Shown here in pieces: positions 4,330-22,715 of a stretch of 64,000 nt of DNA. The first letter of the stretch is position 1. Every line of letters begins with the position of its first letter. Under the pieces are notes generated by a model. It did no database searches and was not told where the DNA came from. It was given only the letters and a program-made list of their open reading frames with translations. The translations under genes were made by a program, and so were the position numbers. The stretch comes from Thermoplasmata archaeon (lineage in GTDB: Archaea > Thermoplasmatota > Thermoplasmata > Thermoplasmatales > Thermoplasmataceae): contig JAJZXB010000002.1 in the NCBI GenBank assembly GCA_021846395.1, positions 124,001 through 188,000 of the forward strand, in the 5' to 3' direction.

Positions 4330-4362
4330 TGATGTAAGTAATTGAAAAGGTTATATATAATT

Positions 4363-5550: not shown

Positions 5551-5585
5551 CTTTGCCTATTGATTACTTATTATTAGGATTTTCT

Positions 5586-6578
5586 CTACAGCAAGGATAT
5601 GTGAAATACAATATGGAATAGCTCTCCGGCAATAAATGTTAGCCCTGCGGCCCCAAGTGCTAGAAGAGCTGATCTTATTGCAGTTTTTAAAATTGGTGTG
5701 TTCAACGACAGCGCGACAATAGAATTTGAAAGGCCCTGTGCTATTCCAACAGCAATTATGGATATTACTATTGCCTCGTATTTTGGAAGAAAAATAAATG
5801 GCAGTATGGGTATGGCTGCGCCTATTATATAGGAAATGGCGGTATTCAGTGCAGAATTGGATGCTTCCTGGGAATATTTGCCAATAAGTTTGTTTACCTC
5901 CTTGCTTTTTGTAAATATGTTTTTTCTATTCAATATTGAGATTTTGTACTCGGATTCGGATTTCTGTGCAAGATAGGATCCGAGAGTCATGCTGAAGGTT
6001 CCACTGAGTCCTACAACAACACCGCTTAAGGCTATATCTATGTTGCTTGATATTATGGCTGTTAATCCTGCCAGTGTCGCAAGTATTTCAACAAGACCAT
6101 CACTCATTCCGTATAAAAAATCTCTACTTTTTTGGACTGTGTTTTTATTGGTTGATATTTTTTTTGCAAATATATCTTCATGGTCCATTTCTTGAGATAT
6201 GAGTTCATTGACTTTCTGTTTATAAGTATCCTCTTCCTTATATGAATCAAGATATTCCTTATATTTAATTATAGACCCGTATTCTCCATGTTCAAGCACA
6301 TTTATAATTAAACTCTTTCCTATAATATTGTATATTATTTTCATCAAAAAATATTTAAATTTGTGATAATGTATTTTATTTATATCTATATCTGCTGATT
6401 GTTTTAATTCATTGCCCCAGAAATTTGCATGTTCACTTTCGGTTTTTGCCAGGATTCTAAAATTTTTCTTCATCTGGTCATTCTGTGTTTTCCTGAATAA
6501 ATATGAGTAAAATACCATATCCGTAAGTTCATCCCTCAGAAATTTTATTTGACATTTCTGGTTATAATCGTATTTCAT
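5586..6578 (-). CDS. Ferritin-like domain fused to VIT1/CCC1 iron/manganese transporter
   Basis: A 330-residue protein with two parts. Residues about 5-150 are a ferritin/rubrerythrin-like helical domain with metal-ligand patterns ESEHANFW and QEMDHEDIF. Residues about 155-330 are a VIT1/CCC1 membrane module with the hallmark RDFLYGMSDGLVEILATLAG, GLSGTFSMTLGSYLAQKSE and three further membrane helices. Related fusions detoxify cytoplasmic iron by moving it across the membrane. A longer frame begins at 6626, but ATG at 6578 has a TATA-like TTTATATT about 25 bases upstream and removes a hydrophobic tail unlike the family, so it is preferred. An iron role fits an acidophile living in iron-rich water; that is inference. 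Confidence 0.83.
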   Translation of the reverse strand: MKYDYNQKCQIKFLRDELTDMVFYSYLFRKTQNDQMKKNFRILAKTESEHANFWGNELKQSADIDINKIHYHKFKYFLMKIIYNIIGKSLIINVLEHGEYGSIIKYKEYLDSYKEEDTYKQKVNELISQEMDHEDIFAKKISTNKNTVQKSRDFLYGMSDGLVEILATLAGLTAIISSNIDIALSGVVVGLSGTFSMTLGSYLAQKSESEYKISILNRKNIFTKSKEVNKLIGKYSQEASNSALNTAISYIIGAAIPILPFIFLPKYEAIVISIIAVGIAQGLSNSIVALSLNTPILKTAIRSALLALGAAGLTFIAGELFHIVFHISLL

Positions 6579-6747
6579 CCATAAATAATATTTTTGCAAT
6601 ATAAATAACTTTATTATATTAGGCATATCTAACCATTTTTCAAAATTTTTAACAAATATGCCGATTTATGAATCTAAAAAAGGAAATTTTGTTAAATGTC
6701 TTTAGAAATATCAAAAAACTATTTATTGGTAGATATATTATATAATC

Positions 6748-8100
6748 ATGGAAAAAACTAAATCTTTCAATAAGGTAAGCATTACAACTGAGCTACCCGG
6801 ACCAAAGGCGAAGGAAATAATACAGAGGGATGAAAAATTCCTTGCAAAATCAACAAAAACCTTGCCAGTGGTAGCTTCTCGAGGCTATGGGTGCTATGTT
6901 GAAGATGTGGATGGGAATACCTTTCTTGACTTTTCAAGTGGAATAAGCACAACCAACATCGGTTACTCCAACGATTATATTATATCAAAGGTTGAGGATC
7001 AACTGCACCGGATGTGGCATTTTGCCGGCACAGATTTTTATTATAGGGAACAGGTTGATGCCGCTGAAGCCCTTATAAATGTAATGCCTGGTTCAAAGGA
7101 TAAAAAGGTATTTTATACAAATAGTGGGGCTGAAAGCAATGAGGCTTCAATAAAATTTGCCAAAAGCTATACAAAGAGGCCACAGTTCATAGGTTTCATA
7201 GGAGGCTTTCATGGAAGGACCATGGGTGCACTGGGATTTACTGCATCAAAATCTGTCCATCATGAGGGATTTTTCCCCGAAATGCTGGGGGTGCACCATA
7301 TTCCATTCCCCGATCCATACAGGAATCCATTCAATATTGATGGGTATGAGAATCCAGATGACCTTACAAACGCAGTTCTTGATTATTTTGAGGAATACGT
7401 TCTTGATAAATATGTACCTGCAAACAGTATCGCAGGAATACTTACTGAACCCATACAGGGAGAGGGGGGATACATAGTACCACCCAAAAATTTCCATCAG
7501 AAATTAATGAAACTTGCCAATGATAATGGCATTTTGTATATGATGGACGAGGTTCAAACTGGGTTTGGAAGAACTGGAAATTTCTTTGCATCCGAATATT
7601 TTGGTGTTGATCCAGATATTATGTCTGTTGCCAAATCAATAGCTTCAGGTATACCAATGGGCGCTTCGGTAGTAAAATCAAAATATGAATTTGAAAAATC
7701 TGGCCTGCATTCAAATACTTTTGGCGGGAACATTCTGGCTTCAGTAGCAAGTATGGCAACCATTGAGGAAATAAAAAGACAGGATATGCTGAAAAATTCA
7801 AGGGAAACAGGATCCTATCTGAACAGGAGGCTGAAGGAGCTTATGGATAAATATGACAAAATTGGGGATGTTCGTGGACTTGGCTTAATGCAGGCAATTG
7901 ATTTTGTTACGGACAGAAGAACAAAAAAATACAATAAATCACTCAGGGACGCTGTGGCTGATAGGGCTTACCACAGAGGGTTGATACTTCTTGGTGCAGG
8001 TGAAAGTGCAATAAGATTTATACCTCCACTCATCATAAAACCAGAAGAAATAGATGATGCAATCAACATACTTGATAAATCAATAAAAGAATCATTATGA
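6748..8100 (+). CDS. Class III PLP-dependent aminotransferase (4-aminobutyrate/acetylornithine type)
   Basis: A 450-residue fold-type I aminotransferase. The phosphate-cup segment reads TNSGAESNEASIKFAKSY, the cofactor-pairing Asp lies in LYMMDEVQTGFGRTG, and the Schiff-base lysine is Lys296 in SVAKSIASGIPMG. The C-terminal half has GLGLMQAIDF and a final small domain. This subgroup uses omega-amino donors such as 4-aminobutyrate, ornithine or lysine; which one cannot be decided here. The ATG at 6748 lies 25-30 bases after a TATATTATATAA stretch, which suggests a nearly leaderless message. Its end overlaps the end of the opposing hjc gene by 6 bases. Confidence 0.9.
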   Translation: MEKTKSFNKVSITTELPGPKAKEIIQRDEKFLAKSTKTLPVVASRGYGCYVEDVDGNTFLDFSSGISTTNIGYSNDYIISKVEDQLHRMWHFAGTDFYYREQVDAAEALINVMPGSKDKKVFYTNSGAESNEASIKFAKSYTKRPQFIGFIGGFHGRTMGALGFTASKSVHHEGFFPEMLGVHHIPFPDPYRNPFNIDGYENPDDLTNAVLDYFEEYVLDKYVPANSIAGILTEPIQGEGGYIVPPKNFHQKLMKLANDNGILYMMDEVQTGFGRTGNFFASEYFGVDPDIMSVAKSIASGIPMGASVVKSKYEFEKSGLHSNTFGGNILASVASMATIEEIKRQDMLKNSRETGSYLNRRLKELMDKYDKIGDVRGLGLMQAIDFVTDRRTKKYNKSLRDAVADRAYHRGLILLGAGESAIRFIPPLIIKPEEIDDAINILDKSIKESL

Positions 8101-8610
8101 ATTGATATAATCAATCAAGCTGATAAGTGGAAGGCCATCCTCCCATTTCAAAATAAAATTGCCATTTTTTGTAGTTTCTTGTTTTGGCAATATACCATAT
8201 AGTCCCCTCATTTTACCGGCATAATCAATATTGCTTTTTATTGAAAAAAATCTCCATGCATCTCCTTTGAATCCCTTTAATCGATATGCATAGGTTATGA
8301 ATAGGCCTGAAGATATGCATTTATTATGCAATTTCAACGCCTGAATTTGCTTTACCCCTGATGATTCGCTAAAAGTTAATTGGTCCCTTTCAGATGATTT
8401 AACTTCGATAATCAGTGAATAATCGTCCCTCAGAGAAACAAGGTCCGCACCTAGAGATCCGGCTGCCCGTGCAACATAAAATGGCTTTTCCGTGATAGAA
8501 TACAGTATATCTTTTGATAGTGGGTCCAGATTCCGTGAAATCCTATCTATATAGGTTATATTACCGGATAAAATATTCAGCAGTTCACGCTCATAAATGC
8601 TTCCGTTCAT
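8095..8610 (-). CDS. hjc: Holliday junction resolvase, Hjc family
   Basis: A 171-residue protein. The nuclease core is seen as the N-terminal YERELLNIL glutamate, then RAAGSLGADLVSL with the catalytic aspartate, and IIEVKSSE with the Glu-x-Lys pair, which is the arrangement of archaeal Hjc and other PD-(D/E)xK enzymes. Hjc cuts four-way DNA junctions made in recombination. The protein is longer than the usual 130-140 residues because of an insertion near residues 25-42 and a longer C-terminus. It is 8 bases downstream of the thioesterase gene and probably co-transcribed. Confidence 0.87.
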   Translation of the reverse strand: MNGSIYERELLNILSGNITYIDRISRNLDPLSKDILYSITEKPFYVARAAGSLGADLVSLRDDYSLIIEVKSSERDQLTFSESSGVKQIQALKLHNKCISSGLFITYAYRLKGFKGDAWRFFSIKSNIDYAGKMRGLYGILPKQETTKNGNFILKWEDGLPLISLIDYINS

Positions 8611-8618
8611 TATATCGC

Positions 8619-9107
8619 CTAAAATAATACTGTTTCTTTCATATTTTTCAGTGCGTCAAGTCTGCTTTTGCTTCTGGTTTGGCCTTCACTGAACCTCTTT
8701 TCTTCCTCTGGCGTCTGCAATAGTAATCCTGGTATTTCTACAGCCCTTCCATTTTCATCTGTGGCCACGTATGTGAAATAAGCTCGGGTTGTTACTTTCT
8801 TGTCGCCTGTTTCAACATTTTCTGTTTGAACATCTATTTCCACTTCCATTGTTGACCGGGTGACATATGTTATAAAGGTGTGTATTGTTACAATGTACCC
8901 GAGATTTATTGGAGAGAGAAAAAAAAGATTATCAATGCTTCCAGTTACGACCTTTTTCCTTGCATGCTTGAAGGCCGTAATGCTTGCAATATTGTCCATC
9001 CATTCAACTAGCCTACCGCCATATAAAGCGCCAAAAATATTTGTATCTTCTGGCAAAACAAGTCTGTTAACTTCTGATTCAGAATTTTTTACAGTTTTAT
9101 TTTCCAT
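8619..9107 (-). CDS. Acyl-CoA thioesterase, hotdog fold
   Basis: A 162-residue protein with the hotdog-fold acyl-CoA hydrolase pattern: PEDTNIFGALYGGRLVEWMD at residues 18-37 with the catalytic-site Asp/Asn, the helix SITAFKHARK, and the strands TGSIDNLFFLSP and MEVEIDVQTEN. It resembles the YciA/BACH group, which hydrolyses acyl-CoA esters in the cytoplasm. Archaea with isoprenoid lipids still carry these enzymes and the physiological substrate is unclear. The gene is followed by hjc on the same strand. Confidence 0.88.
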   Translation of the reverse strand: MENKTVKNSESEVNRLVLPEDTNIFGALYGGRLVEWMDNIASITAFKHARKKVVTGSIDNLFFLSPINLGYIVTIHTFITYVTRSTMEVEIDVQTENVETGDKKVTTRAYFTYVATDENGRAVEIPGLLLQTPEEEKRFSEGQTRSKSRLDALKNMKETVLF

Positions 9108-9250
9108 GATTTGGGATAACCATTAAATTAATAATGTTATGCCCTGTACGTGCATAAATAAGATTATATTAAAAAATATTTAATCAAAAAATTATCCCAG
9201 ACATATTATAAAATTAAAAAAAATAATCTATTATTAAGGTATATACACAA

Positions 9251-9829
9251 ATGGAAATGAATGATATCAAAACAAAATTTCCAAAAAAAATTGAACTCGA
9301 AGATTCCAGAATTATCAATATTGGCAGGGATATGGTACCAAATGAAAATTTATTTTCCCTGTTATATAAGGCAGATATGGCTGATAAAATTGCAATAAAC
9401 CTTATCAAAAATGGATTTCATGACGCAGGGCCGAGTTTTTTCAAGGGGGAGATATACAGCTTATCAAAACCTTTGATTTTTCCATGGGAAATACACCTGA
9501 GATTGTTCATACGTGATGGTTATGGAAAAATATATGCGCATCTTGAGGTTTCAAGGAAATACTTTGAACATCTTTTTCTTATACAGCCCGTAATCTATGA
9601 ACCTTTTGAATTTTACAAGAGTGCGTATAAAAAATTTGAAGTCAATTATGAGCCAGAAAATAAAAAGGTTTCAAGGTTTATTGAAAATTATTATGTTAAG
9701 CTGGAACCACCTGAAGATCTTATACAGTGGATGCCAGTGGTTTTGGGCATGTATTCAGAGCTCACAAAAAATAAGGAAACGTTCAGGAAACTGCTTGACA
9801 TTGTGGATAATGTATTAAAAAAACTCTGA
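9251..9829 (+). CDS. Conserved-looking hypothetical protein
   Basis: A 192-residue acidic and basic mixed protein with no membrane segment or signal peptide. I do not recognise a family. It has a plausible compact fold with an aromatic-rich middle (SKPLIFPWEIHLRLFIRDGY and YFEHLFLIQPVIYEPFEFY) and a helical C-terminus. The frame is clean, its codon usage resembles the neighbours, and an AT-rich promoter-like stretch lies just upstream. A second ATG four bases of codon space later (MNDIKTKF) is an alternative start. It meets the nob1 gene tail to tail with no gap. Confidence 0.7.
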   Translation: MEMNDIKTKFPKKIELEDSRIINIGRDMVPNENLFSLLYKADMADKIAINLIKNGFHDAGPSFFKGEIYSLSKPLIFPWEIHLRLFIRDGYGKIYAHLEVSRKYFEHLFLIQPVIYEPFEFYKSAYKKFEVNYEPENKKVSRFIENYYVKLEPPEDLIQWMPVVLGMYSELTKNKETFRKLLDIVDNVLKKL

Positions 9830-10300
9830 TTATTTTTTTGTGTATCTCTTTACATTATGGCCACATACGGGGCATATTTTTGCATAGTCAAAAAAAATTT
9901 TATGGCAGCCGGTGCACCTGTATTTCCATTTTATTCTTTTTGATATGGTACTTATGGATGCCCCATTATATGGTATATTTAAATATGCTGCAATATTCTG
10001 AATTGCGTAATCATCTGATATTATGATTCCATTAAACTCCAGTGCAAGGGCAATAACGTCGATATCTGTTTTACTTAAAACATAAAAATCCCCTGTTTCT
10101 TTTGCAATTTTTATCACTTCATTTACATATTTGATTTCGGGAGAACGTATATCAATTTTTTCAACGGAGTCAAGAATATATTTGAAATTTCCATTCTTAA
10201 CCTCCTCAATAACACCAGAAGGAAATACATAGTCTTCACTGTTGAGGTTGAGTTTTCCGGATAATATAGCCGAGGTATCTATGATATATTTTATTGGCAC
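9830..10300 (-). CDS. nob1: Ribosome-maturation endonuclease Nob1 (PIN domain plus zinc ribbon)
   Basis: A 156-residue protein. The N-terminal PIN nuclease shows the acidic residues in YIIDTSAIL, VIEEVKNG, SKTDIDVIALA and ISDDYAIQNIA. The C-terminus is a zinc ribbon with two CxxC pairs, RCTGCHKIF and CPVCGHN. This domain order and size are those of archaeal Nob1, which cuts the 3' end of 16S rRNA precursor. The convergent hypothetical gene ends one base away. Confidence 0.92.
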   Translation of the reverse strand: MPIKYIIDTSAILSGKLNLNSEDYVFPSGVIEEVKNGNFKYILDSVEKIDIRSPEIKYVNEVIKIAKETGDFYVLSKTDIDVIALALEFNGIIISDDYAIQNIAAYLNIPYNGASISTISKRIKWKYRCTGCHKIFFDYAKICPVCGHNVKRYTKK

Positions 10301-10386
10301 TTGTATAGAGTATTATTTATAAAATAATAAACTATTTTTATTCTCCCAACATATAAAAAATATTTTCTTTTTAAAAGCCTATTTTA

Positions 10387-11174
10387 ATGATATTTCAATA
10401 TCTGGCTGTGTCTTTCATTATTTATATGCTCCTCATTGTTATTGGTGTGGCTGTTGGTGCATTAACTGGTATAACCGGAAGCAGTGGCGTAATTGTGGTT
10501 GTTTCCCGCACTATCTTACATGGCAATAAATTTTAAAACTGCAATCGGATCGAGCCTGCTTGTGGATGTAATTACCACATCAATAGTTATCTATGTGTAT
10601 TTTAAAAAGAAAACACTTAATATTGCTGTTGGCATAATTCTTGGTGTTGGTGCTATAATAGGTGCCCAGATAGGGTCTGCAATAGCACATATTTTGCCTG
10701 TAGTGCCTCTTGAATATTTTTTTCAATATGGCCCTTACAATGGGATATTATATGATAAATATGTCCTACCATATGGAAAAATTGGTTATGAATAAGCTGG
10801 AAATAAAAAATGGATGTCCTTTTCATTTGGGTTTATTTTAAGCATTCCTGTTGGAATACTAACAGGCATTATTGGTACTAGTGGCGGGATTATGTTTATC
10901 TTTATTATAATCGTATTGTTTTCAATGAAGGCACAGGATATGGTTGGAACAGCAACACTTGCTATGCTCCTTTCTGCCTTAAGCGGAACAGCAGGATACA
11001 TCATAATTGGGCATATAGATTATATGGCAGCCATAATAATTGGTGTTGTTGCACTTATTTCAGGCTATTATTTTTCGATTCTGGCACATAAGCTTGATCA
11101 GAAATATATATCGATTTCTTGGAATTGTCTTTATTATGGTGATGATCGGCGAAATGTCAAAAATATTTCTATGA
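10387..11174 (+). pseudogene. TauE/SafE-family anion exporter, broken by four frameshifts
   Basis: Reading across frames reconstructs a TauE/SafE membrane protein (export of sulfite, sulfoacetate or similar anions). Two repeats of the family motif are present: GALTGITGSSGVIVV at the start and GILTGIIGTSGGIMFIF in the middle. The first frame stops after 49 codons; an extra T near 10502 is needed to join it to PALSYMAINFKTAIGSSL. A shift at the T7 run near 10719-10726 and a compensating one at the A-run near 10802 are needed to avoid the stop at 10793. A last shift near 11115 restores LGIVFIMVMIGEMSK and a stop at 11172-11174. Neighbouring genes are all intact, so real decay is more likely than poor sequence, but base-call errors at the homopolymers cannot be excluded. 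Its 3' end overlaps the opposing ThiF gene by 6 bases. Confidence 0.8.
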
Positions 11175-11942
11175 CAGTATGGACTTTCCCATGTTTGAAT
11201 AATATGGAGTTAAATAATCATATTTTCTTTTTGAACAGGATCTACACTCTGGATTTTTATTTATTTTGATTGGATGCATATCAATATCATATACATCTAT
11301 GAAATATAAATCACCATTTATGTTTTCTCCCAACATAATTTTCATCCCTATATTGACTGCAAATGTGGATATATTAACCGGCAATGTGTTTATAACACCG
11401 GTGACTGCACATGAAGGCATATGTTCAGGCTTTTTATTGTAACAGGCATAGCACGATGTTTTTCCCGGCATTATTCCTTTTACCTCCCCGTAGAACTCGT
11501 TTGCGGATGTAAACACCCATGGCTTATTGAATTTATTGCATGCATCATTAATAATAAACCTCGTTGTCATGTTATCTGTGCCATCATAAACCAGATCTGC
11601 ATTTTCAATCAGATTTATTTTTGAGGAATCAAAGGTATTGTTATGGAATTCTACCTCTATATCGGGGTTTATTTCCATTACTTTATTTGCGGCCGTTTCC
11701 GCCTTGAAACTTCCAATGTCGCTATAATTATACAGTATCTGCCTGTGAATGTTTGTATCTTCAATTCTATCCCTGTCAATCATAATCAATTTTTTTACGC
11801 CAAGCCTAGAAAATAGATCGGCAGCTGCACTTCCCGTTCCACCAAGACCAACAATTAATATGGTCTTCTCAAGAAGTTTTTTCTGCCCTTCCATTCCTAT
11901 TGCTTTCAGTGATGTTTGCCTTGCATATTTCTGTAAATTCAC
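11169..11942 (-). CDS. ThiF/MoeB/UbaA-family E1-like adenylyltransferase
   Basis: A 257-residue protein. It shows the nucleotide loop IVGLGGTGSAAADLFSRLG near residue 30, the DRDRIEDTNIHRQILY segment with the conserved arginine and glutamine, DGTDNMTTRF, and two zinc CxxC pairs (SCYACYNK and CRSCSK). Members adenylate the C-terminal glycine of ubiquitin-like sulfur carriers for molybdopterin, thiamine or tRNA thiolation and, in archaea, SAMP modification. Which carrier is used is not visible because no small carrier gene is beside it. Confidence 0.9.
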   Translation of the reverse strand: MNLQKYARQTSLKAIGMEGQKKLLEKTILIVGLGGTGSAAADLFSRLGVKKLIMIDRDRIEDTNIHRQILYNYSDIGSFKAETAANKVMEINPDIEVEFHNNTFDSSKINLIENADLVYDGTDNMTTRFIINDACNKFNKPWVFTSANEFYGEVKGIMPGKTSCYACYNKKPEHMPSCAVTGVINTLPVNISTFAVNIGMKIMLGENINGDLYFIDVYDIDMHPIKINKNPECRSCSKRKYDYLTPYYSNMGKSILS

Positions 11943-12049
11943 AGTTAAATATCCAATTAAGATTTAAAGATTTTTCCAATCTTGCTGGAATCGTTATTGT
12001 TTAAATTTCCTGTGGATAAATTAATAAGATATGCTGAGATAAAAAAACC

Positions 12050-12925
12050 ATGGATTTGAAAATAAAGGAAAAATACTTACTGGCAGGAAAAATTGGAAAG
12101 AATGCCCTTAATTATGCCCAATCCCTTATAGAACCAGGCGCTTTATTTTATGATGTTGCAGAAAAGACTGAACAGTATATAAAAGATAACGGTGCAGTGC
12201 CTTCTTTTCCTGTAAATTTATCAATAAACAATGAGGCGGCACACTACACACCATTTGAAGGAGATAAAAAGAAATTCAAAACCGGTGATCTTGTGAAGGT
12301 TGATCTGGGTGCAATGGTTGATGGCTACATGTCAGATAATGCGACAACTGTGGAGGTCGGAAATACAGGAAAATATTCAGATTTAATAGATGCCACCAGA
12401 GAGGCTTTAAATGCAGCAATTAAAATATTAAGGCCAATGGTAAATATATACAGAATAGGAGAGGAAATAGAAAATGCCATAGATGCATATGGATTCAAAC
12501 CAGTAAAAAATCTTGGAGGTCATGGCATAAATAGGTATGATCTGCACTCAGAGATATTCATACCAAACTACAATGACGGAAATGATGAAACGATAAAAAC
12601 TGAGAAAGCAATAGCAATAGAACCATTTGCAAGCACAGGAATAGGTATGATACATAATGGGCCTCTTGGGAATATATACATAATAGATGATACAAAGGTC
12701 AGGGACAAAAATGAAATGATATATAAAAACTTCAATACAATACCATTCGCAGAGCGTTGGCTTGCCAAAATTACGCCTGAATATAAAAAGTACATAAATA
12801 AAACGATGCAAAATCGTTATGTTTCAGGATTTCCCATATTGAAGGAACACAATAAATCAATGATAGCTCAGTCAGAACATACAATACTCATATTGAATGA
12901 TGAAATAATTGTAACAACAAAATGA
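12050..12925 (+). CDS. map: Methionine aminopeptidase, type II
   Basis: A 291-residue metallopeptidase that removes N-terminal methionine. The metal ligands appear in order as the two aspartates in KVDLGAMVDGYMSDNAT, the histidine in NLGGHGINRYDLH, the glutamate in AIAIEPFASTG and the last glutamate in AQSEHTILI. The insertion between the fourth and fifth ligands (residues about 205-265) identifies the type II enzyme typical of archaea and eukaryotes. The ATG lies shortly after an AT-rich promoter-like stretch. It is a single gene with opposite-strand neighbours. Confidence 0.95.
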   Translation: MDLKIKEKYLLAGKIGKNALNYAQSLIEPGALFYDVAEKTEQYIKDNGAVPSFPVNLSINNEAAHYTPFEGDKKKFKTGDLVKVDLGAMVDGYMSDNATTVEVGNTGKYSDLIDATREALNAAIKILRPMVNIYRIGEEIENAIDAYGFKPVKNLGGHGINRYDLHSEIFIPNYNDGNDETIKTEKAIAIEPFASTGIGMIHNGPLGNIYIIDDTKVRDKNEMIYKNFNTIPFAERWLAKITPEYKKYINKTMQNRYVSGFPILKEHNKSMIAQSEHTILILNDEIIVTTK

Positions 12926-13029: not shown

Positions 13030-13650
13030 TTATAAATTCTTTATAATATTATACATATTTTTCTGAACATTTTCAATATCTTGATTTGCATCTATTCTAA
13101 TTACCTGTATATTTTTACCCGTGTATTTTTCAATATTTTTAAGGAAATAATCATAGTATTCAAGTACTTTTTTTAGGGTTTCAGCCTTTTCAAGAATTGA
13201 TAACCGTTCATTATTTTTTGATAGATTTTTTCTGTTGTTTTTAATTCTTTCCATTGCACTTTCAATAGAAACGCCAAGGTATATTATTATATCCGGCATG
13301 AACCTTATTACTTTAGATACATTTAGCATATATTTTATTGTTTCATCCTTATTTCCAAATAACTTTTCTATTAATGGGCCTTCATACGCTATTGATGATG
13401 CAATATAACGATCCGAAATTATTGTTTTATCCTTATTTTCTTCAATGTACTTTTGGTGGTCCAGTCTATCATATGTAAATAAAAAGAAGTTGTAAATTGA
13501 ATCATATTCATTATCCAGCGGCCTCAGTCTGCTAAATTCAAAATTCTCAGTGGGTTCACTTGTATAGCATATATCTGTAAAATTTTTTCTGAGATATTTT
13601 ACCATAGCTGTTTTGCCAGAACCATCTATACCTTCTATAGTGATAAGCAT
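13030..13650 (-). CDS. tmk: Thymidylate kinase
   Basis: A 206-residue P-loop kinase that phosphorylates dTMP to dTDP. Motifs are the P-loop IEGIDGSGKTAMVKYL at residues 5-20, the DRX motif SDRYIASSIAYEG, and the lid region RIKNNRKNLSKNNERLS. Length is normal. The C-terminal half is AT-rich and lysine/isoleucine-rich like the chromosome background. It is a single minus-strand gene, with the TnpB fragment upstream. Confidence 0.92.
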   Translation of the reverse strand: MLITIEGIDGSGKTAMVKYLRKNFTDICYTSEPTENFEFSRLRPLDNEYDSIYNFFLFTYDRLDHQKYIEENKDKTIISDRYIASSIAYEGPLIEKLFGNKDETIKYMLNVSKVIRFMPDIIIYLGVSIESAMERIKNNRKNLSKNNERLSILEKAETLKKVLEYYDYFLKNIEKYTGKNIQVIRIDANQDIENVQKNMYNIIKNL

Positions 13651-13735
13651 AGAACATTATAAAAGAATATTATAATAAATTTTATACATAAAAATTAAAA
13701 AATTTTAAAATTTATTTTTTCTTGTAAGAATAGAA

Positions 13736-13764
13736 GTGAACTACCTCACCCTAAAGCGGTGAAG
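13736..13764 (-). repeat. Right end hairpin of an IS200/IS605-type element
   Basis: On the minus strand the sequence just after the TnpB stop can fold as TCACC-GCTTTAG-GGTGA followed by GGTAGTTCAC, the kind of subterminal hairpin and cleavage end found at the right ends of IS200/IS605 elements. In active TnpB elements this end also encodes the guide (omega) RNA; whether it is still transcribed here is unknown. Confidence 0.45.
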
Positions 13765-14159
13765 CTTCCTATATCAACCACAAAACTTGCCTCCACGCCT
13801 GGAATACTGTTCAGGTATTCCATCATGCAGGTATAGGCTTTCATGTCCATATGCATATATTCCCTGCGTTCCACAGGTACTATATATTCTAAAATATTTA
13901 TTGATGCATTTAGATCCCGATCAATAGATAGGTTGCATGATCCACAGTTGAATGTTCGTTCTTCCAGAGGCATCTTCTGCCTGTGACCACATATTGAGCA
14001 TACCTGTGATGTGGGTGTATATCTTGGAACAATAATAGGAGTACGTGATTTTCTCTTTAAATCCTCCATTATTCCTCCTATTGCTGATCCTTGAATCTTC
14101 CTTCCCAATAAATCTCTGCATATCTCTGCTATCGATATATTATTCTCAAAAGATTTCAT
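13746..14159 (-). pseudogene. TnpB C-terminal fragment (IS200/IS605 family)
   Basis: A 137-residue remainder of the RNA-guided nuclease TnpB, normally 370-430 residues. What remains is the zinc ribbon (VCSICGHRQ and NCGSCNLS) and the third RuvC motif DRDLNASINIL; the first two RuvC aspartate/glutamate motifs are gone. The sequence upstream of the apparent ATG (14160-14280) does not continue the protein. No TnpA gene is nearby. It can no longer cut DNA in the known way. The fragment ends at a recognisable right-end hairpin, so the loss was on the 5' side. Confidence 0.85.
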
Positions 14160-14416: not shown

Positions 14417-15562
14417 ATGGTTAAGAATGGTTTTAATTCCAGAGCGGTTCATTCTGGCGACCTTAAAATTGATGGTATAGGGAATGTTGTTACACCGATA
14501 TTTGAAAACTCAACCTTTGAGTTTAATGAAGATGGAACTTCGGGAAAATATATATATTCAAGATGGGGAAACCCAACAATAGAATCTCTTGAAGATAAAT
14601 ATGCTTCACTTGAAGAATCAAAATATGCCTTTGCGTTTTCATCGGGAATGTCCGCTATCACCAGCATAATTATGGGCATATTAAAAAAAGGAGACAAATT
14701 GTTAAGTATAAATGAATTGTATGGGCAAACATTTTCATTTTTTGCTGAGACATTGCCATTATATGGTATAGATGTTGATTTTATATCAGTAAGGAATTTA
14801 AACGATTTAAAAATTGACAATAGGAAATATAAAGCGTTTTATGTTGAATCGATAACAAACCCACTGCTTGAAATACCCGACATAGAAAAAATATCAAAAT
14901 ATTGCAGGGAAAACGATATAATTCTTATTGTGGATGCCACATTTGCAACACCGTATAATCAAAATCCCCTATCTCTTGGAGCTGATATAGTTGTTCATAG
15001 CGGCACAAAATATTTGTCAGGGCATACGGATCTTCTGATAGGTCTATTGGGTTCAAATAAATATTATGATGAAATAATTAAATCAAGAAAAACATTCGGT
15101 GGAATACCCGATGCATTTCAGGCATATCTAGTTTACAGGGGAATAAAAACTCTTGGCCTGAGAATGAAACAACACAACCAGAATGGGAAGGCGGTGGCAG
15201 ATATATTGAACGATTCTCATAAAATTGAGGCAGTTTATTACCCTGGTCTGGAGAACGGTTATTTTCACAACATAGCAAAGAGAAATCTGAGGGGTTATGG
15301 TGGCATGGTTTCCTTCAAGGTAAGAGGTGGTATTGAAAAATCCCATAAATTGATAAATAATATGAAGATTCCATTATATGCAGTGAGCCTTGGTGGTGTA
15401 GAGAGCCTCATATCAATTCCTGTTGAGGGCACACACAGCGCTTTATCAAAGGCAGAAAGGGAGGAATCTGGAATAACTGATAATCTCATAAGATTGTCTC
15501 TGGGCATTGAGGACACGGAAGATCTTGTACAGGATGTGTCCAGTGCACTTGAAAAATTATAA
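14417..15562 (+). CDS. Cys/Met metabolism PLP enzyme (cystathionine gamma-synthase/gamma-lyase family)
   Basis: A 381-residue trans-sulfuration enzyme. Family landmarks are SRWGNPTIESLEDKYASLE, the cofactor-stacking GQTFSFF, DATFATPYNQNPLSLGAD, and the Schiff-base Lys198 in HSGTKYLSGHTDLLIG, followed by the C-terminal SLGGVESLISIP. Members include cystathionine gamma-synthase, gamma-lyase, methionine gamma-lyase and O-acetylhomoserine sulfhydrylase, and sequence alone does not separate them safely. An AT-rich promoter lies at 14385-14415 next to the start. It runs into the opposite-strand pth2 gene with a 6-base overlap. Confidence 0.9.
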   Translation: MVKNGFNSRAVHSGDLKIDGIGNVVTPIFENSTFEFNEDGTSGKYIYSRWGNPTIESLEDKYASLEESKYAFAFSSGMSAITSIIMGILKKGDKLLSINELYGQTFSFFAETLPLYGIDVDFISVRNLNDLKIDNRKYKAFYVESITNPLLEIPDIEKISKYCRENDIILIVDATFATPYNQNPLSLGADIVVHSGTKYLSGHTDLLIGLLGSNKYYDEIIKSRKTFGGIPDAFQAYLVYRGIKTLGLRMKQHNQNGKAVADILNDSHKIEAVYYPGLENGYFHNIAKRNLRGYGGMVSFKVRGGIEKSHKLINNMKIPLYAVSLGGVESLISIPVEGTHSALSKAEREESGITDNLIRLSLGIEDTEDLVQDVSSALEKL

Positions 15563-15907
15563 TAATTTATATTTTCCTGTAATTTTATCCAGTGCGTCAT
15601 CCCTGTCTGGGCCAATGCCCATGCATGTCACGGTTCCGGGTGTTATCTGTGTATGCCCTGCATCCGTTATTATTTGATTTATAATTCCTGCATTATCAAG
15701 TTCATCCTTTAATTTATAAATTTCAGCAAGGTTATCAACCTTTATAATAACCTTTTTCTGACCTTCAAGCATCCATAAACTGAATATCATTTTATTTTTT
15801 TTCATTGATGTAATTGCACACGAAACAGCTGCATGCGCTACCTGTGCCGCAATTTTCCCCTTTCCCATATCGACATCCTTTCTTACAGCTATGACCATCT
15901 TTACCAT
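15557..15907 (-). CDS. pth2: Peptidyl-tRNA hydrolase, type 2
   Basis: A 116-residue protein, the standard length of archaeal Pth2, which recycles peptidyl-tRNA lost from ribosomes. The active-site region KGKIAAQVAHAAVS at residues 15-28 and the C-terminal TDAGHTQITPGTVTCMGIGP are diagnostic. It overlaps the end of carS by 7 bases on the same strand, so XRE-CBS, carS and pth2 form a tightly packed set. Confidence 0.95.
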   Translation of the reverse strand: MVKMVIAVRKDVDMGKGKIAAQVAHAAVSCAITSMKKNKMIFSLWMLEGQKKVIIKVDNLAEIYKLKDELDNAGIINQIITDAGHTQITPGTVTCMGIGPDRDDALDKITGKYKLL

Positions 15908-16458
15908 GGAACATCCTTCATCTTGAGCTTATGGGCGAGCACATTCACACCCCTGTGTACTGGTGGTGTTATAATCAATAGCACAATTATTGGTATGGTA
16001 TCCCCATAGAACTTGATAAAGAAGGCTCTTGCAAAGAACAGCAGGAATATGAATGACATGATCACAAAGGGCCATTGGTCAAGTATGGAACCTCTGGCAC
16101 CTCTTTTCATTCCCAACCTTCTTTTTATAAATGAACCTGCTATATCCCCAAATAAAGAACCAAAACTCATGATAAATAAAACATACAGGGCACCCAAAAG
16201 ATTTGATGAATAATTTCCATAGGAACTATGCACAAGTTCCAATATATAGAAAATTATTAAACCTGAAAGCATTCCTATAAGAGTCCCCCCAATAAGACCA
16301 GACCATGTTTTACCATCCCCCAGAATCCTCTTATTATGGAAACTTTTCCCCATGTCTATTCTGAAATGTCCGCCGGTTATCACGGCACCGGGATTGGCTA
16401 TATATGCCGGCATAAATAGTATCATTGAATAGATAGTAAATAGAAAGATATTATCCAT
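15901..16458 (-). CDS. carS: CDP-archaeol synthase
   Basis: A 185-residue membrane protein with about five hydrophobic segments. The DGKTWSGLIGGTLIGM motif and GDIAGSFIKRRLGMKRGARG are the signatures of CarS (formerly DUF46), which activates unsaturated archaetidic acid with CTP in ether-lipid synthesis. Length matches the family. It overlaps the upstream regulator gene by 8 bases and the downstream pth2 gene by 7 bases. Confidence 0.93.
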   Translation of the reverse strand: MDNIFLFTIYSMILFMPAYIANPGAVITGGHFRIDMGKSFHNKRILGDGKTWSGLIGGTLIGMLSGLIIFYILELVHSSYGNYSSNLLGALYVLFIMSFGSLFGDIAGSFIKRRLGMKRGARGSILDQWPFVIMSFIFLLFFARAFFIKFYGDTIPIIVLLIITPPVHRGVNVLAHKLKMKDVPW

Positions 16459-17029
16459 ATGTCTCTACCGCTTTTAGTATATCCGCCTTTGTAATAATCC
16501 CCTTGAGCTCAGTGCCATCCAGAATCAATATGGCATTAGAATATTTCAGTAAAGGATATATCATTGATATTGGACTCTGTTTATCCAGCTGGGGCAAAAT
16601 ATTGCCCATTACCTTTCTTACAGTTAAATGTTTCAGTGATTCAATTGATGTGCCTTTAATAAGCATATCATTTATATCCGCCTCGGTAATGGTCCCAATT
16701 ATTCTTTTATCTGTTGTTACAACTGGCAACTGTGAAAATCCTTTTTCCCTCATTTTGTTTAGAGCGGATATTATGGAATCATTCATCTCACATGTAATAA
16801 CATTTTTGGTCATTATTAAATCTGCCTTGATATCTATATCTTTAGCACGATTTCCTGATGTATTCAAATACTCAAAAATTTTTCTTATCTTATCGTATGC
16901 AGGATTTATCTCACCCTTCTCTAACCTTGCAATATACGACTGACTTACACCACTAATTTTCGCAAGTTCCTTCTGGCTTATACCCAGGGATTTTCTCATT
17001 TTCCTTAATTCTTCAATACTGGGAAGCAT
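16451..17029 (-). CDS. XRE-type HTH plus paired CBS domain regulator
   Basis: A 192-residue protein. Residues 5-55 are a lambda-repressor-like helix-turn-helix (LRKMRKSLGISQKELAKISG then SQSYIARLEKGEINPAYDKI). Residues about 70-190 are two CBS repeats (MTKNVITCEMNDSIISALNK and VRKVMGNILPQ). CBS pairs bind adenine nucleotides, so this is probably a ligand-sensing transcription factor. The overlap with carS suggests it regulates its own operon and hence membrane lipid synthesis, which is inference. This domain pairing is common in euryarchaea. Confidence 0.9.
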   Translation of the reverse strand: MLPSIEELRKMRKSLGISQKELAKISGVSQSYIARLEKGEINPAYDKIRKIFEYLNTSGNRAKDIDIKADLIMTKNVITCEMNDSIISALNKMREKGFSQLPVVTTDKRIIGTITEADINDMLIKGTSIESLKHLTVRKVMGNILPQLDKQSPISMIYPLLKYSNAILILDGTELKGIITKADILKAVETYG

Positions 17030-17448
17030 TTATTTTGTATTAATTATTACTATTAATAATTATTGTCTCCAACTATTCTGAACAATCCCTTTAGAAAAAT
17101 TTCTGAAATAAATACTCGATTGAAATCTTATAAATGACTTAAAGCACGAAATCCACTGAGCTTGGGATGTGGATGAAGTCTAAATTTTATATTATTGAAT
17201 TGCATATTTTCGATATATGAAGATATAACAGCCGATAAAGCCTATAGGGGAACAGAAACATGTCTGAGAAGAATGGTGCAATCAGAAAAACCATAACGGA
17301 GACAAGAGAAAGGAGGAATTTTCAATGATTTATTTGAAGACACAAAATTTAAAAGTTACTAAAAAAGTATGTTTTTTAGAAATTATCTGCTCTATACCCA
17401 GCATAGATAGTATATAAAACTTATTATAATTTATTGTTATAATCTTAT
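17030..17448 (+). other. Intergenic region with a hairpin and mobile-element-like traces
   Basis: No gene is supported in these 419 bases. Around 17150-17185 the sequence ATCCAC-TGAGCTTGGGAT-GTGGAT followed by GAAGTC can form a hairpin like the right ends of IS200/IS605 elements. From about 17222 a short broken frame (ITADKAYRGTETCLRR) may be a leftover transposase tail. The last 40 bases (TATAAAACTTATTATAATTT) look like the promoter of the DUF488 gene. Confidence 0.4.
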
Positions 17449-18039
17449 ATGATTAATCAAAATGAAAAACATTATAGGAAACTTATTCGACAGGGAGCAA
17501 CCTATATGGTTTCACTACCTAAAGATGACCTTATTGAGTTACAATGGAAGCACGGAGACAAAATTCTTGTAGAAAAAATTGGCAAATCGATACAATTAAT
17601 GAGATCGGGGAAACCAAAAATATTTTCCATAGGATATTCGGGCAGGAAAATAAAAGATTTTATAGAAATTTTAAAGGAAAATAAAATAGATTATTTGGTT
17701 GATGTAAGAAACAATGCTTTCAGTTGGAATAAGGAATTTTCCAGAAATAATATAGTTGAAAATTTAGCAGCACATGGAATTAAATATATAAATTTGCCTA
17801 AACTGGGTGCACCAAAAGATATTCGGGTTGAAATTAAAGAATATGGAAATAGAAATAAATTTTTTGAATTATATTCTAAATGGTTACAGTTAAACATATC
17901 CTATATGAATCTTATTGATGTTTTTGCCAGGAATAACAATACAGTATTAATGTGTTTAGAAGAGGATTATAGGAATTGCCATAGGAAAGTTATAGGTGAA
18001 AAATTGGAAGAAGATGGGTATGAAGTGATTCAATTATGA
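17449..18039 (+). CDS. AbrB-like N-terminus fused to DUF488
   Basis: A 196-residue protein. Residues 8-46 look like a SpoVT/AbrB swapped-hairpin DNA-binding domain (RQGATYMVSLPKDDLIELQW then HGDKILVEK). Residues about 58-196 are DUF488, with FSIGYSGRKIKDFIEILKEN, LVDVRNNAFSWNKEFS and the family-typical VLMCLEEDYRNCHRKVIGE. DUF488 has no firm biochemical role. The stop overlaps the start of the next gene by 4 bases (ATGA), so the two are coupled. The promoter is immediately upstream and leaderless in style. The fused AbrB domain suggests that the cassette controls its own expression; that is inference. Confidence 0.82.
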   Translation: MINQNEKHYRKLIRQGATYMVSLPKDDLIELQWKHGDKILVEKIGKSIQLMRSGKPKIFSIGYSGRKIKDFIEILKENKIDYLVDVRNNAFSWNKEFSRNNIVENLAAHGIKYINLPKLGAPKDIRVEIKEYGNRNKFFELYSKWLQLNISYMNLIDVFARNNNTVLMCLEEDYRNCHRKVIGEKLEEDGYEVIQL

Positions 18040-18809
18040 ATTACGAGAAAAAAAAGGTTTTAGTTACAGTTAAGGCATATCCAGAAAAGAGTAAGAAATA
18101 TGGAGCATCTGTATGTACAGCTGGGATAACAGATCAGGGTGAATTTATTCGTCTTTATCCTATACCGTTCGAGAATTTTAGAGGGGGAAAATCGATTCCT
18201 AAATATTCCTGGATAACGGTTGAATGTAAACAGGCTTCCGAATATCTAATGAGAAAAGAAAGCTACAGGGTCAGGTATGAAAACATAAAAATCGGAGAAC
18301 AAATTACTACAAAAAATAATTGGAATGAAAGAAATAAAATTGTTCTTCCTTTACTTTCAAATTCATTGGAGGAACTTAAGAAATCCCAGAAAGATGTGCC
18401 AAAATCTCTTGGAATTATAAAACCAAAGAAAATATTGGATTTTACTATTGATGAAAAGTGGAGGCAAAACGATGATGAAGACAAAATCCTTAAAGGAATA
18501 CAATTAACTCTAGATGGGGAAGAGAGAACCAAACTGGAAAATATACCATATAACTTTAGGTACCAATTTTATTGTGATATAGATGAGTGTAGTGGACATA
18601 ATATTATGTGTGAAGATTGGGAAATGTTGCAGGCGTGGAGAAGTTGGAAGCAGAAATATAAAGATAGGGATAAATTGGTGGAAAAATTCAAGAAAAAATT
18701 TTATTATGATATGATAGAAAACAAAGATCTATATTTTTTCTTAGGAACACATTCTCAATTTAATACATGGATAATAATTGGCCTCTACTACCCTCCCAAA
18801 ATCAAATAA
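18036..18809 (+). CDS. Uncharacterised partner of DUF488 protein
   Basis: A 257-residue soluble, lysine-rich protein. I do not recognise a named domain with confidence. The N-terminus (VLVTVKAYPEKSKKYGASV then CTAGITDQGEFIRLYPIPF) has a beta-rich look, and a Cys/Trp-rich stretch follows near residues 178-205 (YCDIDECSGHNIMCEDWEML). The C-terminus has FFLGTHSQFNTWIIIGLYY. Translation is coupled to the AbrB-DUF488 gene. From memory, proteins with this N-terminal pattern do occur beside DUF488 genes in other prokaryotes, which would make a two-gene module, but I cannot confirm that here. Confidence 0.75.
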   Translation: MNYEKKKVLVTVKAYPEKSKKYGASVCTAGITDQGEFIRLYPIPFENFRGGKSIPKYSWITVECKQASEYLMRKESYRVRYENIKIGEQITTKNNWNERNKIVLPLLSNSLEELKKSQKDVPKSLGIIKPKKILDFTIDEKWRQNDDEDKILKGIQLTLDGEERTKLENIPYNFRYQFYCDIDECSGHNIMCEDWEMLQAWRSWKQKYKDRDKLVEKFKKKFYYDMIENKDLYFFLGTHSQFNTWIIIGLYYPPKIK

Positions 18810-19140: not shown

Positions 19141-19358
19141 TCAAAACAGGTTATAACCAAATGGGCTTGCCATCGTAGAATGGAAAAACTTTTTAACTTT
19201 TTTTGCATCTCTCAATAGGGTAATGTTTGTTATTTTCATAATTCAACCACTATCTCCATCAATTTTAATTTATCTGAAAGGGCCATTCATATTATTTTAA
19301 AAAAATATAAACAATAAAATCATGTTGTTTATAAAAAAATAGACATACGGAGAGTCTG
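19141..19358 (-). mobile_element. Truncated ISH3-like insertion sequence end (remnant A)
   Basis: The plus-strand sequence AGACATACGGAGAGTCTG at 19341-19358 matches the 18-base terminal repeat of the intact element at 20.6-22.2 kb except for one base. The next 100 bases on the minus strand follow the same untranslated leader almost base for base. A start ATG at 19239 opens a transposase frame beginning MKITNITLLRDAKKVKKFF that aligns loosely with the intact protein (MKQQITPINDIKLVKKPFY) and stops after 32 residues at 19141. So this is the left end of a diverged relative, pointing the other way; the rest is deleted or decayed. Confidence 0.75.
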
Positions 19359-19400
19359 TTTATTGTGATAACTTTAAATATCATTAAATAATTTTATCAT

Positions 19401-20030: not shown

Positions 20031-20605
20031 AATAAAAAATTGTATTTGTGTAACTCCACTGGATTGGAATTTGAGCTGATATTAGAACTGTAATAATTAA
20101 ACCGACTTTGTCGAGTAGAGAGCAAGCACAGTTATTGTGAAGTATGCTAACGTGACCATGACATCACATCATGGAAGATGCCCCTCAATTCTGTTTCCAA
20201 CTCCCTCTCTAAAATTCCAGACTGGCTCATTTCGAGCGTCCGACTTCAAGTGTTGCATTTCATGTGAGATTTTCCCCTTCGGTTATATGCACACATCACC
20301 TTCCCTTCATATGACTACATAACACTGCAAGATTTCGCGTTACCCTGAACAGTTACGGTTAATAACCATTTCTGGTAATCCGTAATGCCGCATTCCTATT
20401 TGTAGGGATACACAGAGGTCATTTGCTCCTCCAGTTTGTTATCGTTGGTATCATAACTACTACGACCTCATCCGCAGAGCCATGAACAATGCGTAAGGTT
20501 GGCTTTCCGCATTCTCCTGTATCTTCTATGTTCATGGTTCATCCCTGTTTGCCCATCATACCTTGCAAATGGGCATTTTATCCTATTTGAGTGTTTCTGA
20601 ATTTG
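20031..20605 (+). other. G+C-richer non-coding stretch between regulator and ISH3 element
   Basis: About 575 bases with clearly less A+T than the surroundings and no convincing reading frame. Both strands have many stops. On the minus strand, broken fragments in changing frames (for example LECMSQSGILERELETELRG-like and LALYSTKS) suggest an old coding sequence that has decayed. The composition resembles the dsr island rather than the chromosome, so this may be the left fringe of the acquired segment. No tRNA or attachment site was seen in it. Confidence 0.4.
20601..20605. repeat. 5-bp target-site duplication, left copy (ATTTG)
   Basis: ATTTG lies directly against the outer edge of the left terminal repeat and is repeated at 22156-22160 against the right repeat. 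A 5-bp duplication fits ISH3-family transposition. Confidence 0.8.
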
Positions 20606-20623
20606 CAGACTCTCCGCATGTCT
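20606..20623. repeat. ISH3 terminal inverted repeat, left
   Basis: Eighteen bases, an exact reverse complement of 22138-22155. One-mismatch and more diverged relatives occur at 19341-19358 and 50530-50547. Confidence 0.92.
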
Positions 20624-20723
20624 AATTTTTTATAAACAGCAGGATTTTATTGTTTGTAGTTTTTTAAAATAACATGAATGACATTGTCAGATAAATTAAA
20701 ATCAATGGGGGTAATATTGAATT

Positions 20724-21890
20724 ATGAAACAACAAATCACCCCCATAAATGATATAAAACTTGTTAAAAAACCTTTTTATTTTGGAATAAGGAATATATT
20801 CAAGGATAATATACATAAACAATCCAAATATGATTCCCTTGATATACCCAGCACATTGATAAATGCGATAGGAAGAAATATGTACATAGAATCATATGTA
20901 AGGAATTACAATAATAATAGGAATATGCCATCCGCTGATACATTGTTTAGAAGGGTAAAGGATACCCATGTTGTATGCAATGATAATGAGTATGATAAGA
21001 ATTCTGGATCTGATATAATTTCAAAGATGGTTGACCTTACTGTAACCAATGCCAAATCATTGGGATTGGTTGATAAGAAGATAAATGTTGCAATAGATGA
21101 ACATGATGAGCCATATTATGGGCATAGTAATAATAAACTGATCTATACACCTTACCATAAATATAGGGGCACTGATAAGGCTTATAGGCTTGCCACAATG
21201 GAATCTGTAGACAAACCAAGAATGACACTATCAGTTATAAGGAAAATACCCTTAGACGGTATTGATTTATCAAAGGAGGTAAGATTGTTGGTTGGGCATG
21301 CTATCTCACTTGGAATAATGATAAACATACTTTTAATGGACAGGGGATATTTAAGTGCAAAGGTATTGAAGGCACTTGGCAATATGGATATTAATTATAT
21401 TATTCCCGTTAAGCTTAATAAGAAGGCAAAGAGGCTTATGGATACAAATATGAATGAATATAACAATATAAGATATTCAATAATAAAAACAGGGATATCA
21501 TCATATAAGGATAAGGCTGAAACATATTTAGTCCATGTAATATACAATAAGAATGGGAAAAAATATGATTTTGCATTCTATACAAACATGGATGCCAATA
21601 TGGATAATATAATAGAATTGGCGGAATTATATAGAAAGAGATGGTGCATAGAGAATGGATATTTGGAAAAGAAGGAATCAAAGGAGAAAACACATTCATA
21701 TACAATGTATGTAAGGTATTTCTTATATTTGCTGGCAATATTGTTGTATAATTTATGGATCCTTATAAATTGTATAATATCAATAATGGGGAAAACACAT
21801 CTTATATTCATCGATTTCCTCATATCACTGGGGAGGAGTATTAAAAGAGAGGGGAATAACAGGTATAAAATGATAAACCACAATGTATAG
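20724..21890 (+). CDS. ISH3-family DDE transposase
   Basis: A 388-residue transposase of the IS4 superfamily. The catalytic triad is Asp125 in VAIDEHDEPYY, Asp206 in LLMDRGYLSAK and Glu310 within YRKRWCIENGYLEKK, which satisfies the Y-x2-R-x3-E-x6-K signature exactly. Length is normal. It opens about 100 bases inside the left terminal repeat and is the only gene of the element. The C-terminus is hydrophobic (YFLYLLAILLYNLWILIN), as in relatives. Confidence 0.93.
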   Translation: MKQQITPINDIKLVKKPFYFGIRNIFKDNIHKQSKYDSLDIPSTLINAIGRNMYIESYVRNYNNNRNMPSADTLFRRVKDTHVVCNDNEYDKNSGSDIISKMVDLTVTNAKSLGLVDKKINVAIDEHDEPYYGHSNNKLIYTPYHKYRGTDKAYRLATMESVDKPRMTLSVIRKIPLDGIDLSKEVRLLVGHAISLGIMINILLMDRGYLSAKVLKALGNMDINYIIPVKLNKKAKRLMDTNMNEYNNIRYSIIKTGISSYKDKAETYLVHVIYNKNGKKYDFAFYTNMDANMDNIIELAELYRKRWCIENGYLEKKESKEKTHSYTMYVRYFLYLLAILLYNLWILINCIISIMGKTHLIFIDFLISLGRSIKREGNNRYKMINHNV

Positions 21891-22137
21891 CTTATAGAAT
21901 ATAGAAATTGATTCTATTCTATATAATTCCAGTAATTGTTGATAATTATATATTATAGCGATAACTATGTAAAATTGCTCTTTAGGCCATAACAATATAC
22001 CATTGATATACCAATAATACCCGTTCATATGTAGTTTATAATGCTAAATAATAACAAATTATTATAGAGATTATAATAATTTTGATGATTTATTGTAAAA
22101 TAATTGAAAATACCAATCCATCATTTAAAATATTTTA

Positions 22138-22155
22138 AGACATGCGGAGAGTCTG
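22138..22155. repeat. ISH3 terminal inverted repeat, right
   Basis: Eighteen bases, an exact reverse complement of 20606-20623. The 245 bases between the transposase stop and this end are AT-rich and non-coding. Confidence 0.92.
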
Positions 22156-22376: not shown

Positions 22377-22715
22377 ATGGAAGATGATACTAAAGAAAAG
22401 AAGCATGTTGTCAACGGAAAAGAGATAGGTCTTGACGAAGATGATTTCATGCAGGATCCGGAGCAGTGGGATAAGGATGTTGCAAAGTGGCTGGCGAAAG
22501 AATATGCAGGGGTCAGTGAGATGACAGAAGAACACTGGAAATTGGTAAATTATCTCAGACAGTACTGGGAAACTTTTGGAGTCTGTCCCCCAATTAAAAT
22601 TATCACGAAGAATACTGGGCTGACTCTTGAGAGGATGTACGAGCTGTTTCCTGATGGACCGGCTCATGGTGCGTGCAAGGTGTCTGGTGCTCCAAAACCA
22701 ACTGGCTGTGTTTAA
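22377..22715 (+). CDS. dsrC: DsrC, sulfur carrier of dissimilatory sulfite reduction
   Basis: A 112-residue protein of DsrC/TusE fold. The typical core FMQDPEQWDKDVAKWLAKEY, LTEEH-like MTEEHWKLVNYLRQYW and GVCPPIKIITKNTG are present. The flexible C-terminal arm carries both conserved cysteines, Cys100 and Cys111, spaced C-x10-C with the second being the penultimate residue. Both cysteines are needed for the trisulfide made by DsrAB, so this is a true DsrC rather than a one-cysteine TusE-like protein. It is the first gene of the island and is followed by sirC on the same strand. Confidence 0.95.
   Translation: MEDDTKEKKHVVNGKEIGLDEDDFMQDPEQWDKDVAKWLAKEYAGVSEMTEEHWKLVNYLRQYWETFGVCPPIKIITKNTGLTLERMYELFPDGPAHGACKVSGAPKPTGCV

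Follow-up and report, generated by a model that had tools for sequence, protein, structure and literature searches.

The systems closest to the gene pair described here are two separately listed phage defence candidates, PDC-M19 and PDC-M45. The abbreviation PDC is resolved as phage defence candidate in PMC11514479, and such candidates are characterised in PMC12988326 as putative systems from a guilt-by-embedding approach that are mostly unvalidated. Since PADLOC names the two genes PDC-M19A and PDC-M19B, the pair already has a catalogue entry, as a predicted system. A literature search whose coverage ended short of the candidate preprint of Payne et al. (2024) returned no experiment on PDC-M19 or PDC-M45, nothing on a pair of DUF488 and partner, on DUF488 within work on rhodaneses and nucleic-acid modification, or of relevance on dual-OB proteins and DuOB (all by title), and nothing on DUF488 together with restriction-modification (R-M) or RapZ.

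The pair lies in the window, the stretch of 64,000 nucleotides of a Thermoplasmata archaeon that was analysed as a whole. Like PDC-M19, it consists of adjacent genes that both match strongly (M19A and M19B), but residues 1-50 of its first protein are AbrB-like and lie beyond the PDC-M19A match. With PDC-M45 it shares an OB-type protein (M45A, DuOB) adjoining DUF488 genes (M45B and M45C); PDC-M45, however, has three genes with two DUF488 proteins, and M45A and M19B are weakly similar. Certain relatives of M19B match the Pfam family DuOB (PF22557), whereas gene B of the window does not. A further parallel is a ParB-CTPase-DUF488-HTH fusion, which according to PMC12704722 binds CTP; DUF488 is joined to a DNA-binding module as in the window, this module being ParB in the fusion and AbrB in the window. 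In the following, loci are designated by L and genomes by G numbers.

Results

Gene A (17449-18039, plus strand, 196 aa) comes from the ORF list and was assigned by Pfam, PADLOC and a structure model as a fusion of an AbrB/MazE-like hairpin with DUF488. The swapped-hairpin half covers residues ~10-52 (17476-17604, plus strand; TIGR02609, PF04014 and model), and the DUF488 domain covers residues ~56-196 (17614-18036, plus strand; Pfam, residue conservation and fold comparison). Gene B (18036-18809, plus strand, 257 aa) encodes a DuOB-like protein assigned to the OB fold on the basis of PADLOC, the model and the DuOB relatives. The two reading frames overlap by 4 nt, an ATGA that holds the stop codon of A and the start codon of B, so that the fusion gene with an overlapping second frame proposed in the preliminary description is borne out. 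The same description had placed the pair in an accessory strip between insertion remnants and dsr genes, and this setting was found again: a TnpB-like fragment lies at 13746-14159, a transposase at 20724-21890 to the right of the pair, and the dsr genes begin at 22377, ~3.6 kb downstream (all named by eye). Inverted-repeat arms occur near the transposase (20575-20713, 20606-20646 and 22115-22155), with an extra end remnant at 19251-19389, and the strip to the right of the pair is therefore regarded as insertion-element debris. With a GC content of 29-32%, compared to 35% in the window, the pair is at the 15th percentile among equal-sized stretches, and its composition is thus unexceptional.

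In Pfam, DUF488 (PF04343) gave a full-length match to gene A, at residues 67-185, with an E-value of 1.5e-22 and 80.9 bits against a curated cut-off of 22.2, while DUF488-N3a (PF22751) remained narrowly under its cut-off (25.6 vs 27). The PADLOC match to PDC-M19A (E 2.1e-32) aligned residues 51-189 with profile positions 144-284, and PDC-M45B and PDC-M45C were matched additionally. Upstream of this domain, TIGR02609 gave a weak match in NCBIfam (E 0.0026) and PF04014 stayed below the Pfam cut-off (15.1 vs 24.7 bits), but the AbrB-type relatives L024, L028 and L003, each scanned alone, exceed the latter. In the AlphaFold model of A, built from 19 sequences (pLDDT 88.7, pTM 0.75), residues 12-52 form a beta-beta-alpha-beta-beta arrangement according to DSSP, with pLDDT block means of 76-83 for residues 11-50. 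The AbrB-like hairpin fused to DUF488 that had been claimed earlier is thus predicted by the model as well, with a profile match that is weak in the window protein and above the cut-off in relatives.

The DUF488 residues G62, Y63, D85, R87, C169, E171, C177, H178 and R179 do not vary in either of two sets, of 18 and of 19 sequences; they include the CxE, CHR and DxR motifs, which resemble an active site, may be catalytic and are kept in the window protein. A sequence search of the PDB with A gave a best E-value of 0.1 for an entry of unrelated name. In the fold comparison with VIA-align, the domain was nearest to CbiL and diphthine synthase, which align over 106-116 residues at about 3 A (Z 9.4-9.5), and PTP-type phosphatases follow at lower rank, with Z 8.4 for KAP and Z 8.2 for the Sulfolobus PTP. 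These values are to be read with the caution that a Z under 8 can mean a common arrangement and that the best scores here, 9.5 for A and 8.9 for B, are middling. Burroughs and Aravind are said to have placed DUF488 in the rhodanese-phosphatase superfamily in 2023, with a predicted role in DNA-end processing.

The N-terminal part of the DUF488 partner is variable. Of 18 partners scanned, seven match the AbrB/MazE family PF04014 at E<=0.1; others carry ParB and HTH (L036, a Saccharolobus plasmid locus where the ParB-DUF488 gene immediately precedes the M19B gene) or an XRE HTH (L031), both loci being assigned by reading the sequences, and L037 has HTH_59 according to Pfam. A further type, e.g., in L027, L040 and L062, possesses a ‘FVPYKYG’ region of ~140 aa that has no Pfam match and may resemble Panacea/DUF4065, and the convergent Pseudomonadota-type copies have a DUF488 partner in which no N-terminal module is recognisable. 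Judged from these sequences, the AbrB part is one among several interchangeable N-terminal modules and therefore cannot define the system by autoregulation. AbrB autoregulation as the defining trait of the whole module was rejected, as other copies have a different N-terminal part or none.

Gene B had been described as a protein of unknown fold, a view that no longer holds. PADLOC assigns it to PDC-M19B with an E-value of 4e-69, although the window protein alone gave no match in Pfam (0 families at E<=1, DuOB included) or NCBIfam, and the best PDB sequence match (E 0.13) had an unrelated name. The AlphaFold model built from 21 sequences (pLDDT 85.4, pTM 0.86) retrieved RPA, telomere end-binding proteins (TEBP), Teb1 and SSB with Foldseek, and PriB, SSB, RecO and LEF-3 with VIA-align, the best match reaching Z 8.9 at 2.8 A over 83 residues. 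LEF-3, first in the viral library, was aligned over 174 residues (Z 8.2, 6.4 A). B is therefore predicted to be an OB-fold protein similar to single-strand binders, perhaps with two barrels, of which the second has less support since most of the fold matches span residues 1-90.

The relationship of B to DuOB is graded. Among 19 B proteins, four match PF22557 in Pfam (best E 5e-4). In the group around G295, DuOB was found in 14 of 245 genomes; a separate search of 16 chosen genomes found it in none. Four of the hits (G300, G426, G318 and G509) are M19B proteins, of which G300 alone is above the cut-off (29.2 bits vs 27), and at the nine other loci (L118-L126) two DUF488 ORFs stand beside each DuOB ORF, L119 being recognised by PADLOC as PDC-M45A, M45B and M45C. 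The DUF488 proteins read among these nine loci retain the CHR motif. A comparison of M19B with canonical DuOB by hhalign gave a low probability of 7.7% and an E-value of 0.0045. We tentatively propose that M19B grades into DuOB and that M19 and M45 represent two branches of a common theme.

For the neighbourhood analysis, loci were gathered from genomes, plasmids, phages and IMG/VR, with 7 of 22 plasmid records and 1 of 7 phage records drawn upon; this gave 62 distinct B ORFs, of which 51 span the domain and 11 partial ones were excluded. A DUF488 ORF lies within 400 bp of 47 of the 51 full-length proteins, which, together with the predicted AbrB-like fold, upholds the two-gene module suggested before. 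The orientation of the 47 pairs is A then B in 31 cases, convergent in 15 and B then A in one, and as the linkage survives inversion, it points to function rather than to co-transcription alone. Pairwise distances of the A and B domains correlate across the 47 pairs (Mantel r = 0.72; maximum of 2000 permutations 0.15), a correlation to which common ancestry of whole loci contributes.

The four exceptions are L004, L008, L030 and L057, the contig of the last offering 46 bases upstream. At L004 (2274-3281, minus strand), L008 (2265-3278, minus strand), L099 and L101, a ParB-type protein stands beside M19B in place of DUF488; in L099, a copy of L004, this protein contains an ASCH domain (E 2.1e-6), and this seems to be a swap of the enzyme partner. 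The gene upstream at these loci is AbrB-like by eye and has no match in Pfam. At L030 (4852-5355, plus strand), on the Sulfolobus plasmid pSOG2, M19B overlaps a protein of 168 aa that is nuclease-like by eye and has neither a Pfam match above the cut-off nor a PADLOC match.

Of 292 genomes from the phylum of the window, 12 have a match to the PDC-M19B model and 77 one to DUF488. The pair is carried on 22 plasmid records, seven Gordonia phage records and 18 IMG/VR loci; in Gordonia phage Eviarto, the ORF immediately after the annotated immunity repressor is B, with a DUF488 ORF next on the opposite strand and an integrase close by. Scans of viral contigs with B of the window, B of L035 or the wide alignment A1 yielded nothing useful. 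Block 14430-17066 is kept in the relatives L076-L079, whereas G292 and G183 have the pair or what remains of it on a separate contig. Decaying M19 copies were observed within the same family at L011 and L012 (G183 and G134), with B truncated and, in G134, stops within DUF488. These copies indicate that the pair is dispensable, which is compatible with defence and equally with any accessory function.

Within the genome group to which L027, a Thermodesulfovibrionia MAG, belongs, R-M operons enclose the pair, all genes being on the same strand: L088 contains HsdM (3733-5838), HsdS (5838-7055), DUF488 (7082-7972), B (7982-8800) and HsdR (8808-12212), L090 has HsdM, HsdS, Shedu, DUF488, B and HsdR in this order, and L086 contains Mod (5023-7197), DUF488 (7197-8090), B (8090-8917) and Res (8926-11607). 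HsdM, HsdS and HsdR also flank the pair in L091, as recognised by similarity to the proteins of L086, L088 and L090. On the phage contig L047, an HsdR-like ORF (by similarity) stops just upstream of B, and in L045 a Mod-like ORF is followed by a long ORF, restriction-subunit-like by eye, that ends 30 bases before B. R-M genes thus stand beside the pair at six of the 51 examined, partly redundant loci, or at seven if L099 is counted, where an ORF after B is R-M-enzyme-like by eye only. In L093 and L037, HsdM-like ORFs lie several kb from the pair.

At 20 loci, the nearest flanking proteins, up to three on each side of the pair and 111 in all, gave hits to 192 PADLOC families (E<=1e-15) with type I R-M foremost, a count exaggerated by the redundancy of these families. 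By number of member proteins, the top families were MTase_I with four and REase_I with three proteins. The control, 110 proteins drawn from arbitrarily chosen stretches in 16 of these genomes, matched 12 families, none of them R-M. In the vicinity of seven loci from archaea (window, L024, L025, L026, L028, L098 and L100; 84 genes), no R-M family was found among the best 25 of 35 families; the matches at E<=1e-10 are scattered or generic, among those listed mad2, IetA, E1-E2, Cas12f-like, TRIP13 and VakA. The case for defence consequently rests on the bacterial and viral relatives. The preliminary description had noted that compact two-gene modules with an autoregulating partner in such places are often defence, stress or modification systems; defence is supported by R-M nesting in bacteria and carriage by phages and plasmids, but not by the genes that surround the AbrB-type loci of archaea.

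In front of gene A lies an element of the form TATAAA-N2-TTNTTATAAT-N7-TATAAT (17413-17443, plus strand), which combines a TATA box with an operator-like repeat and is conserved in four AbrB-type loci. Its TATAAA begins 36 nt before the ATG of gene A and its end is 5 nt before it; no Shine-Dalgarno-like stretch occurs upstream of the gene, and the leaderless promoter postulated earlier fits this arrangement, as far as sequence alone can suggest. The element stands out in the alignment of the upstream DNA of the window and L024-L026, which is poorly conserved elsewhere. As the pattern was derived from these four loci, their matches arise by construction; it was searched for in four whole genomes with <=2 mismatches, using the reversed pattern as a control. 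In G292, G293 and G294 it occurs solely at the promoter of the pair, with no match of the control, and the genome of the window has four matches, two exact and two with two mismatches, compared to two of the control. This near-unique occurrence per genome indicates that the element is not a general promoter motif. The second exact copy from the pattern search (13656-13686, minus strand), 36 nt before a gene that is thymidylate-kinase-like by eye (13030-13650), may reflect co-regulation or chance and is without counterpart in the three related genomes. The natural reading is that the element would serve as operator for the AbrB part, and its near-uniqueness makes autoregulation more plausible in the AbrB-type form, although it falls short of proof.

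Discussion

Both genes, their linkage, the predicted folds, the conserved motifs, the nesting in R-M operons and the near-unique element were computed directly. From these we infer nucleic acid binding, catalysis, autoregulation and defence. The pair recurs in bacteria, archaea, plasmids and phages, sometimes inside R-M operons, and is therefore probably a defence part. The reading that we favour, and which we consider about evenly balanced between right and wrong, sees in the pair a compact conflict module that is directed at nucleic acids, serves in defence or as an accessory of restriction, and is most likely aimed at phages or plasmids. B would recognise single-stranded DNA or RNA, such as exposed ends or intermediates of replication or restriction, and the rhodanese/phosphatase-like DUF488 domain of A, with its invariant cysteine and CHR motif, would act on the nucleic acid bound by B or on its ends. 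Tethering or regulation of the DUF488 enzyme may fall to the N-terminal module of A; in the window, the AbrB-type hairpin probably represses the leaderless promoter of the pair through the TTATAAT repeat. The position that the pair has in some bacteria, between the modification/specificity and the restriction genes of type I/III R-M systems, suggests cooperation with the cleavage of foreign DNA.

A more specific version of this module is tentative, and we regard it as rather unlikely in its full form: PDC-M19 and PDC-M45 would be one type of system, consisting of an OB single-strand reader and a DUF488 terminus-modifier that finishes restriction. In such a system, B would hold the single-stranded ends left by type I/III cleavage, and DUF488 would chemically block or trim them and thereby prevent repair of the invader. 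The stand-alone AbrB-type copies would then be self-regulated forms responding to ends exposed in other ways, and the neighbours of ParB-ASCH type could be enzyme swaps on the same OB reader.

Among the other explanations, an accessory function in DNA repair or maintenance survives best and is a possible, if doubtful, one. The OB protein and DUF488 would in this case process DNA ends of the host or of mobile elements, arising after replication stress or self-restriction, for protection rather than attack, and the pair would accompany R-M systems and mobile elements. The resemblance of the OB folds to repair and replication proteins agrees with this, as do carriage by plasmids and temperate phages and the presence of RecT and of a PD-(D/E)XK nuclease-like gene not far from it on a Pseudochrobactrum plasmid; the patchy distribution of the pair in the phylum, the decayed copies and, within R-M operons, the location between modification and restriction genes speak against it.

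A toxin-antitoxin module, with an AbrB/MazE-type antitoxin fused to or paired with a growth inhibitor, is improbable. The MazE-like N-terminal region, the 4-nt overlap, the accessory location and the self-regulatory-looking promoter would all be expected of one, but the MazE-like part is located on the enzyme gene and is missing or swapped in most branches, 15 of the 47 pairs are convergent, which is unusual for toxin-antitoxin operons, and B matches no toxin family in Pfam or NCBIfam. A sulfur-metabolism pair tied to the neighbouring dsr island by rhodanese-like chemistry is very unlikely indeed, for while DUF488 is grouped with rhodaneses, its model resembles PTP-type phosphatases, among others, and dsr genes are close by, the OB-fold partner and the R-M nesting fit nucleic acids. 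A dsr-linked function was also rejected on the basis of the related genomes, in which the pair is found on another contig than the core block (G292) or its decayed copy lies apart from that block (G183).

Returning to the conflict module, the pair of the window is an accessory two-gene module and a listed defence candidate in an AbrB-fused archaeal form, defence itself being predicted. Beyond the existing catalogue entry, the present analysis contributes the assignment of B to the OB fold, a proposed connection of M19 with M45, the nesting in R-M operons, the swaps of partners and modules, and the near-unique promoter element. Two defence candidates that were listed separately would thereby become linked. 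DUF488 is widespread and no established chemistry was found for it; a fixed OB partner, the placement in R-M operons, swappable N-termini and a near-unique promoter together provide a concrete, testable hypothesis for this domain.
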